Part shown: piece by piece, positions 28,903-38,392 of the stretch
Numbering within the stretch: position 1 is the stretch's first letter
How the letters are laid out: each line of letters begins with the position of its first letter
Assembly (NCBI RefSeq): GCF_016735685.1
Contig: NZ_JAERRA010000001.1
Coordinates: forward strand, 496,001-560,000
DNA: 64,000 nt
Direction of reading: 5' to 3'
Source: Piscinibacter lacus
GTDB taxonomy: Bacteria > Pseudomonadota > Gammaproteobacteria > Burkholderiales > Burkholderiaceae_C
Made by a program: the position numbers and the translations under genes
The notes under the pieces: generated by a model
Databases searched by the model: none
Told to the model about the DNA's origin: nothing
What the model saw: the letters and a program-made list of their open reading frames with translations, nothing else

Positions 28903-31704
28903 TCAGACGACCAGGTTGACGAGACGGCCGGGCACGACGACCACCTTCTTCGGCGGCTTGCCCTCGGTGAACTTCAGCGCATCGGGGGAGGCCAGCGCGG
29001 CCGCCTCGATGGCGGCCTTGTCGGCGCCGGCCGGCACGCGGATCGCGCCGCGCAGCTTGCCATTGACTTGCAGCACCAGCTCGATTTCGTCCTGCACCAG
29101 CGCGGCCTCGTCGACGGCGGGCCAGGGCGCGTCGAGCAGCTCGCCGATCGCCGTCGCGTAGCCGAGCTGCTGCCACAGCGCGTGGGTCAGGTGCGGGCAG
29201 GCCGGGTAGAGCGCGCGCAGCAGCACCGAGACGGCTTCGCACAGCACGGCGGCATCGCCGTCCGAGGCATCCGGCGCATAGGCATCGAGCGCATTCAGCA
29301 GCTTCATGCAGCCCGAGACCACGGTGTTGTACTGCATCCGCTCGTAGTCGTGGCTGACCTGGCGCAGCACCAGGTGCAGCTCGCGGCGCAGGGCCTTGGC
29401 CTCGGCGCGCAGCGGCGCGGCCGACAAGTCCGAGGCCGTCGCGCGGACCAGCGTGGCGGACTGCTTCTGCGCGTAGGACCACACCCGCTTGAGGAAGCGG
29501 TGCGCACCCTCGACCGCCGACTCGTTCCACTCCAGCGTCTGCTCCGGCGGCGCCGCGAACATCACGAAGAGGCGGGCGGTGTCGGCGCCGTAGCGGTCGA
29601 TCAGCTCCTGCGGATCGACGCCGTTGTTCTTCGACTTGGACATCGTGCCGACGCCCTGGTAGTCGATGGCGGTGCCGGCGGGCAGGCCGTCCTTGTCGGC
29701 CTTGAGCCGCGCGCCGACCACCTTGCCGCCGGCATCCAGCACATGCTCGACCTCATGCGGCCAGAAGTACTCGATGCCGCCCTGCTCGCTGCGGCGCGAG
29801 TAGATGTGGTTGAGCACCATGCCCTGGGTCAGCAGCTTCCTGAAAGGCTCGCTGACGGTGACCAGCTTCAGGTCGCGCATCACCTTGGTCCAGAAGCGCG
29901 CGTAGAGCAGGTGCAGGATCGCGTGCTCGATGCCGCCGATGTACTGGTCCATCGGCATCCAGTGCTGCGCGCCGGCGCCGACCATGGCCTGGCCGTTCGT
30001 CGGATCGCAGTAGCGCATGAAGTACCAGGACGAATCGACGAAGGTGTCCATCGTGTCCGTCTCGCGCCGCGCCGCGGCGCCGCAGACCGGGCAGGTGACG
30101 CCGGCATGGAAGCCCTCGTGCCTGTGCAGCGGGTTGCCGCTGCCGTCGGGGATGCAGTCCTCCGGCAGCACGACGGGCAGGTCCTGCTCGGGCACCGGCA
30201 CCGCGCCGTGTTCGGGGCAGTGGATGATGGGGATGGGCGTGCCCCAGTAGCGCTGGCGGCTGATGCCCCAGTCGCGCAGGCGCCAGGTGATCTTCTTTTC
30301 GCCCAGGCCTTTCGCGGCGAGCAGTTCGGCGACCTTGTCCACCGCGGCCGCGTGCGGCAGGCCGTCGAGCACCCCGGAGTGGATGCACACCAGGGATCCC
30401 GACTTGTCGGCGTACCAGTCCTGCCAGCGGCGCGCGTCGAACACGCGCGAGTCGGCCCGGGCGGGGGCGCCGGGTGACGATTTCTGCTCGCAGCATGAGG
30501 AACCCGGCGCCCCCGCCCGGGCCGACGGGCCCTCGCCTTCGCCGATCACCTGACGGATCGGCAGGCCGTACTTCAAGGCGAAGGCAAAGTCCCGCTCGTC
30601 ATGTGCAGGCACGCCCATCACCGCGCCGTCGCCATAGCCCATCAGCACATAGTTGCCGACCCAGACCGGCACCTCGGCGCCGGTCAGCGGGTGGCTGACG
30701 ACCAGGCCGGTCGGCACGCCCTTCTTCTCCTGCGTGGCCAGTTCGGCCTCGGTGGTGCCGCCGGCCTTGCATTCGGCAATGAAGGCGGCCACCTCGGGGC
30801 GGCCCTGCGCGGCATGCAGGGCCAGCGGATGCTCGGGCGCGACGGCGCAGAAGCTGACGCCCATGATCGTGTCGGCGCGCGTCGTGAACACATACAGCCG
30901 CCCGCCGCCGATCGGCGCGCCGTCGGCGCCCGCAATCGTGTGCGGGAAGGCAAAGCGCACGCCGCTGCTCTTGCCGATCCAGTTCTCCTGCATCAGCCGC
31001 ACGCGCTCGGGCCAGCCGCTCAGGTAGTTGGGATCTTCGGGGTCGGTGACGGCCGAGAGCAGCTCCTCGGCATAGTCGCTGATCTTCAGGTAGTAGCCCG
31101 GGATCTCGCGCTTCTCGACCAGCGCGCCGCTGCGCCAGCCGCGGCCGTCGATGACCTGTTCATTGGCCAGCACCGTCTGGTCCACCGGGTCCCAGTTGAC
31201 GACCTGGGTGCGGCGCTCGCAGATGCCGGCCTCCAGCATCTTCAAGAAGAGCCACTGGTTCCACTTGTAGTAAGACGGCTGGCAGGTGGCCAGCTCGCGC
31301 GACCAGTCGATGGCCAGGCCCATGGCCTGCATCTGGCCCTTCATGTGGGCGATGTTCGAGTAGGTCCAGGCGGCCGGCGGTACCTTGTTCTTCATGGCCG
31401 CGTTCTCGGCCGGCAGGCCGAAGGCGTCCCAGCCCATGGGCATCAGCACATTCATGCCCTTCATCCGCAACTGGCGGGTGAGCATGTCGTTGATGGTGTA
31501 GTTGCGCACATGCCCCATGTGCAGCTTGCCGCTGGGGTAGGGCAGCATGGAGCAGGCGTAGAACTTGGGCTTGTCCGTGTCTTCGCTGACGCGGTAGGCA
31601 TCGCGCGCGGCCCAGTGCGCGCGGGCGGCGGCCTCGACGGCCTGCGGGTCGTAGCGGCTGCCGTCGGCAGCGGAATCGGCGGGGGCTTGCGGGGCAGCGC
31701 TCAT
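28903..31704 (-). CDS. leuS: Leucyl-tRNA synthetase
   Basis: LeuRS charges tRNA-Leu. The 933-residue class I synthetase shows the HIGH-type motif in [14 protein letters not shown], the CP1 editing domain (including the editing Asp in [12 protein letters not shown]), [15 protein letters not shown] and the KMSKS motif in [10 protein letters not shown], then the anticodon-binding and C-terminal domains. At residues about 394-418, at the end of the editing domain, an Ala/Pro/Gly/Ser-rich stretch with two adjacent cysteines interrupts the usual sequence; it is encoded by a perfect inverted repeat (30451-30526) that keeps the frame open. All catalytic motifs are intact, so the enzyme is probably functional. 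No tRNA genes are nearby. Confidence 0.95.
30451..30526. repeat. Perfect 25-bp inverted repeat inside leuS
   Basis: Bases 30451-30475 (beginning GTCGGCCCGGGC) are the exact reverse complement of 30502-30526, around a 26-nt spacer that is less GC-rich. The 76-nt unit is translated in frame within leuS and gives near-symmetric peptide ends (ARAGAPG and PGAPARA). It looks like a small palindromic mobile or repeat element tolerated in a coding sequence. Confidence 0.9.
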
Positions 31705-38342: not shown

Positions 38343-38392
38343 GTGAGCCAGGCTGAAGACGGTCCCTTCGGACCGTCTTCAGCCTGGCTCAC
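38343..38392. repeat. 23-bp perfect hairpin with 4-nt loop
   Basis: Bases 38343-38365 (beginning GTGAGCCAGGCT) and 38370-38392 are exact inverted copies around the loop CTTC. The 191-bp gap between corA and the next small gene holds this and the shorter hairpin and little else. The GC content of the arms is lower than the surroundings, and there is no T-run on either side. Confidence 0.85.

Follow-up and report, generated by a model that had tools for sequence, protein, structure and literature searches.

The spread of REP- and RPE-like repeats that have no transposase is a long-standing question. In integrons, one folded strand of the attC site is the substrate, and its structure outweighs its sequence. 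Two families of REPs, GTAG and CGTC, have been described, and the accessible part of the report assigns to the latter RPE-4 and RPE-6 as well as the Neisseria repeat dRS3 (Di Nocera et al., 2013, PMC3733652). The same part presents CGTC REPs as often dimeric, without a dedicated transposase, at times residing in genes for helicases and tRNA synthetases as well as in uvrA and dnaE2, and built of stems of 8-9 bp, loops of 4-5 nt and an unpaired tail that is mostly CCA (PMC3733652). The RPE-1 type, so far as the available part of its description goes, is a Rickettsia-specific element of 105-146 bp that lies in frame in genes (PMC2229807).

We compare with these systems a palindromic unit located in the leucyl-tRNA synthetase gene of Piscinibacter lacus, within a stretch of 64,000 nucleotides that was analysed as a whole and is called the window. 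Its features are the following:

28903..31704, minus strand: leuS, leucyl-tRNA synthetase, the host gene, 933 aa
30325..30624, minus strand: divergent leuS tract around the insert, probably imported (identity per 60-nt bin to genome G001)
30448..30531, minus strand: in-frame insert, residues about 392-419, none in Neisseria LeuRS (alignment)
30451..30475, no strand: stem arm 1, the 3' arm in leuS sense (inverted-repeat search)
30476..30501, minus strand: conserved loop, in leuS sense TCCTCATGCTGCGAGCAGAAATCGTC; its complement on the plus strand of the window is the probable folding strand
30476..30479, minus strand: CGTC tag-like motif (sequence; family counts)
30485..30495, minus strand: inner mini-hairpin TGCT-GCG-AGCA
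30497..30500, minus strand: CCTC tag-like motif (sequence; family counts)
30502..30526, no strand: stem arm 2, the 5' arm in leuS sense (inverted-repeat search)

Palindrome in the window and its host protein

The palindrome is exact, as the first-pass annotation had read it, with 25-nt arms (30451-30475 and 30502-30526) that are 100% complementary around a 26-nt spacer, and it lies in frame in leuS, where its translation contains the Cys-Cys pair noted earlier. At gaps of up to 100 nt, no other perfect inverted repeat of the window is as long, and its length exceeds chance, since Markov-1 resampling of the window (n=40) gave longest inverted repeats of only 12-17 nt against the 25 nt observed. 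Another perfect inverted repeat of the window, at 38343-38392, has 23 nt and a 4-nt loop and is terminator-like.

The segment had been taken for an insertion in LeuRS, and the alignment agrees: about 28 residues (about 392-419) are unmatched in the solved Neisseria LeuRS (6q89), with residues 17-391 and 420-933 of the window protein aligning to its residues 5-374 and 375-877; the insert ends at 30448 and 30531 come from the alignment and are uncertain by a few codons. That LeuRS proteins normally have no such stretch is true of most, though not all, of the relatives examined: counted from one fixed anchor to another, 92 of 131 other distinct leuS alleles encode 96-101 residues and the remaining 39 encode more. 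The window LeuRS has 125 residues between these anchors versus 96 in G001, the sole other genome of the genus compared, whose LeuRS is about 95% identical and short at the insert site. An AlphaFold model gives residues 392-419 a pLDDT below 50 and no secondary structure; the model is poor overall (mean pLDDT 63.8), and many further segments are also below 50.

At the same leuS site, several genera carry inserts with a common loop and other stems. The relatives G170 and G309 share the loop at this site and have a perfect arm of just 8-9 nt. Genomes with a leuS insert also have the element loop elsewhere, in uvrA and between genes.

Distribution, anatomy and hosts of the repeat family

The leuS unit proved to belong to a family of palindromic repeats that proteins tolerate in frame in the manner of the Rickettsia RPE, as had been proposed. 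Searches with a covariance model (R1), in which no more than 11 candidates per genome were scored (15 in the order sample) and which therefore give minimum values for presence and copy number, detected the element in at least 48 of 399 genomes of the taxonomic family, representing at least 25 of 141 genera. At a stricter cut, at least three of 300 genomes sampled from the order and at least three of 398 sampled from the phylum were positive, all of them in the same taxonomic family. One genome (G104) gave a match in the order-sample search and none in the family or phylum searches.

The table of copies was drawn up from 173 rows and the seeds, less same-place reverse-strand repeats, copies that another locus already supplied, a pair of hairpins truncated at a contig end (L179, L180) and the weaker matches L189 at 3422 and L181 at 5417. 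Removal of two identical rows (L058, equal to L149, and L276, equal to L231 from another genome) leaves 171 distinct copies, 60 in uvrA, 15 in leuS and 96 elsewhere. The counts for loop and stem identity, locus pairs, motifs, inner stems, folding and the outermost pair still include the two duplicate rows, and since the copies are related, their p-values are not independent tests.

Each unit has an outer stem of about 25 bp and a short inner hairpin; between the two lies a conserved internal loop, whose sides read CCTCAT and AAATCGTC. The loop reads CCTCAT on its 5' side in 120 of 159 copies, and on its 3' side ATCGTC in 94 and ATCGTT in 15 of the 159; ATCGTC (n=94) is followed by ACC (49), GCC (31), AGC (13) or GTC (1), and by CCA in no case. 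The inner stem has 2-4 bp in 153 of 157 copies and 6 bp at the longest, and it has 4 bp or more in 89 of 157 versus 24.5 expected after shuffling. Loop identity is 0.84 within a genome versus 0.62 between genomes, and stem identity is 0.46 versus 0.40; the loops are thus homogenised within a genome and the stems are not.

Among the distinct copies, 91% of stem positions are paired. Covariation was assessed in 13 seed copies, relatives at the leuS site included, that are gap-free over 82 columns and were pre-selected for complementarity at 13 or more of 22 positions. Both sides change in 20 of 25 stem pairs, and the alignment cells hold 87 both-sided versus 5 one-sided changes, a result that 0 of 500 shuffles reached. 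In 42 pairs of matching loci, which overlap and join different genomes, most of them within one genus, 793 stem pairs are unchanged, 108 have changed on both sides and still pair, 96 have changed on one side and 11 fall into neither class; some of these locus pairs have one-sided stem changes only.

Besides leuS and uvrA, the in-frame hosts include the error-prone polymerase gene dnaE2, fdhA (formate dehydrogenase alpha), hrpA, murD, murF and genes of NtrC-like regulators, and in-frame copies often lie between annotated domains. Twelve of 20 open frames of the group located elsewhere match a Pfam family, and many of the remaining copies of this group are intergenic as judged by open-frame length only. 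A copy near dbpA precedes the matched domain and may lie upstream of the gene. Inverted twins are the rule among close neighbours, 41 of 43 neighbours less than 300 nt apart being arranged as plus then minus. In the fdhA of one genus, the filled alleles of G114, G217 and G1074 differ from the empty one of G292 by a clean gain of about 31 codons; by eye, no target duplication of the kind that marks a MITE is clear at this one comparison. The idea that the arms are copied from the target was dropped, as the empty fdhA allele, the one empty site read, has no counterpart of either arm. An autonomous insertion sequence bounded by hairpins, to which matches 1.7-1.9 kb apart had pointed, was likewise rejected when these loci read as long UvrA open reading frames, an identity confirmed for L180. 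UvrA frames of 1733-2340 aa occur in L177, L180, L181, L182, L183 and L190, and in L180 (1896 aa) the UvrA models match four to five stretches, a pattern resembling two UvrA units in tandem.

Measured against the accessible part of the published account (PMC3733652), the family resembles CGTC REPs in its CCTC/CGTC tag-like motifs beside complementary AT residues, its predominantly inverted dimers, its intergenic and in-frame copies, its overlapping hosts (uvrA, dnaE2/dnaE, RNA helicases and tRNA synthetases) and in that no dedicated transposase was found; it departs from them in its outer stem of about 25 bp of free sequence, its inner stem of mostly 2-4 bp, and the lack of a CCA tail after ATCGTC (n=94). 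With the RPE-1 type, compared by the part of the description available (PMC2229807), it shares a long stem-loop located in frame in conserved protein genes and between genes. It is also like GTAG REP/REPIN elements in forming small hairpins in inverted pairs, REPINs being thought to be mobilised as single strands, but no Y1/RAYT gene, which in that class is flanked by the repeat, was found beside the hairpins, and the stem is longer and sequence-free. One-strand folding and the precedence of structure over sequence would be shared with integron attC. The literature searched, which mostly lacks subscription journals, yielded no description for this lineage, in line with the earlier statement. 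The further claim of a new family needs narrowing, because REP/RPE repeats in uvrA, dnaE and tRNA synthetase genes have been published, as the accessible part of that account records (PMC3733652); what we have appears to be a new family within the known REP/RPE-like kind, set apart by stem length and tail. It adds, outside Rickettsia, to the few palindromic repeats inside essential bacterial proteins.

Folding strand, mode of spread and arrival of the window copy

Stem mismatches on the loop strand comprise 212 A-C and 33 G-T, counted without the outermost pair, which by itself has 27 G-T, without the innermost pair, whose consensus is C-A, and without copies shorter than 80 nt (14) or with fewer than 16 of 23 pairs (2). 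The ratio is 35:6 in uvrA copies in which the loop strand is sense and 33:9 in those in which it is antisense, the lean is strongest outside leuS and uvrA (110:12), and 20 of 23 genus-level groups share it, one leaning the opposite way and two being tied. If the outermost pair is retained, the uvrA sense set stands at 35:21 and its lean is no longer clear. Given that each A-C on the loop strand corresponds to a G-T on its complement, it is the complement that tolerates wobble pairs, and since the bias occurs in both gene orientations, it is probably the complementary strand that folds, as single-stranded DNA. Folding with DNA parameters gave the complement as the more stable strand in 138 of 159 copies. 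As orientation to the gene is irrelevant, single-stranded DNA would be a likelier substrate than mRNA, and selection at the mRNA level is weakened as a candidate by the same bias in sense and antisense uvrA copies; the wobble bias is also compatible with RNA of the complementary strand. A strand-biased mismatch spectrum of this kind offers a test of the folding strand of such elements from sequence alone.

We propose that a putative enzyme acting in trans would recognise the unit as a folded single strand, namely the loop strand's complement, and copy it in that form. Selection would act on pairing and not on stem sequence, and in-frame landings in domain linkers and surface loops of essential proteins would be those that survive. 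We infer the mobility of the element from comparison of its copies; movement itself was not seen in the genomes compared, one per species. A Y1/RAYT transposase, the obvious candidate, was not supported as the mover: the domain is present in 33 of 40 genomes examined, some of them element-free, was not found in three element-bearing genomes, and at none of 30 Y1 loci did R1 detect a hairpin within flanks of about 1.5 kb. In the 31st Y1 source, L254, an open reading frame that matches no Pfam family ends in a hairpin.

It can be speculated, as a rather doubtful proposition, that the element is a mobile hairpin whose loop is propagated or homogenised and whose stem, being complementarity only, is renewed at each site, with a putative single-strand-acting enzyme that reads one strand. 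If true, leuS and the DNA-repair gene uvrA would house a repeat whose maintenance depends on structure alone. The split in conservation between loop and stem opens the spread of transposase-less REP/RPE repeats to experiment in freshwater bacteria.

For movement of the element within the window's own genome there is no sign, and the divergent leuS tract points to recombinational import. In 60-nt bins, window and G001 leuS are 72-87% identical at about 30325-30624 and 92-100% in every other bin, which delimits a divergent tract of about 300 bp with sharp edges and the insert inside. The window's tract is nearer to long leuS alleles than that of G001: all 15 alleles nearest the G001 tract are short (best identity 0.88), and 7 of the 15 nearest the window's tract are long (best identity 0.83). 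Because the insert sits in this tract, the copy probably arrived with a leuS fragment of about 300 bp by homologous recombination from a long-allele relative, and the proposed scheme would accordingly involve no transposition in this genome. Fragment replacement in G001 instead of the window lineage is still conceivable.

A close donor of the tract was not found among the alleles compared (best flank identity 0.83). A genome search for further copies had been suggested, and dispersed copies exist in related genomes; in the window's own genome, among the best 150 candidates scored, there is no second significant copy (next E = 2.2), which bears out in part the refutation foreseen in the first-pass annotation. 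A plasmid collection contained no match to the window unit, and viral contigs contained none to two exact loop patterns. On balance, and with some reserve, we favour the view that the window feature is one copy of a REP/RPE-like palindromic family of Burkholderiaceae-type genomes that is copied through a folded strand and was imported here by recombination.

Alternative readings and other insertions at the leuS site

Quasi-palindrome correction, in which replication template switching copies arm mutations across an old insertion with neither selection nor an enzyme, would account for the 108 compensated pair changes at matching loci of different genomes and for a perfect stem in the window when related leuS copies have decayed ones. 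It does not predict the strand-biased tolerance of G-T, nor the within-genome similarity of loops and the inverted twins, and we regard it as improbable. An equally small chance is given to a transcribed element, such as a regulatory or terminator hairpin, selected as RNA. The covarying stem tolerates G-U on one strand, many copies are intergenic, and the accessible part of the published account uses G-T pairing to argue that REPs are transcribed (PMC3733652); but the bias favours the same strand whether uvrA copies are sense (35:6) or antisense (33:9), twin copies lie in opposite orientation within one mRNA, and five loci gave no Rfam family at the gathering score, only sub-threshold microRNA models.

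Vertical inheritance of a single old leuS insertion, which most lineages including that of G001 would have lost and the window kept, fits a site at which 39 of 131 other distinct alleles are long. Such descent is hard to reconcile with a sharp difference between window and G001 in only the 300 bp or so around the insert, or with nearest alleles that are long in 0 of 15 cases for the G001 tract and 7 of 15 for the window's, and appears no likelier than the two readings above. Ordinary codon use or an assembly artefact can be invoked since the stretch is GC-rich, of low complexity and composed of Ala, Pro, Gly and Ser, and since a fold-back chimera can give a perfect palindrome; however, resamplings (n=40) reached at most 17 nt and the loop is common to many unrelated assemblies, which makes this explanation scarcely credible.

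The leuS site also holds other insertions. A second element with a conserved core and a variable stem (ACGGGnnATACCCTTAC) occurs there in L010, L020, L069 and L214, with two inverted copies in L020, and L011, the leuS loop of G030, has a further palindromic insert, GAGCTTGTCGAAG...CTTCGACAGG, so that the site accepts at least three kinds of element. In G120, a copy of the present element (L186:8188-8269) lies near the start of leuS, about 1.2 kb upstream of the leuS copy. In the genus g76, the loop peptide at the leuS site runs one way in L196 and L200 and is reversed in L198 and L199, suggesting either loop inversion or separate insertions.
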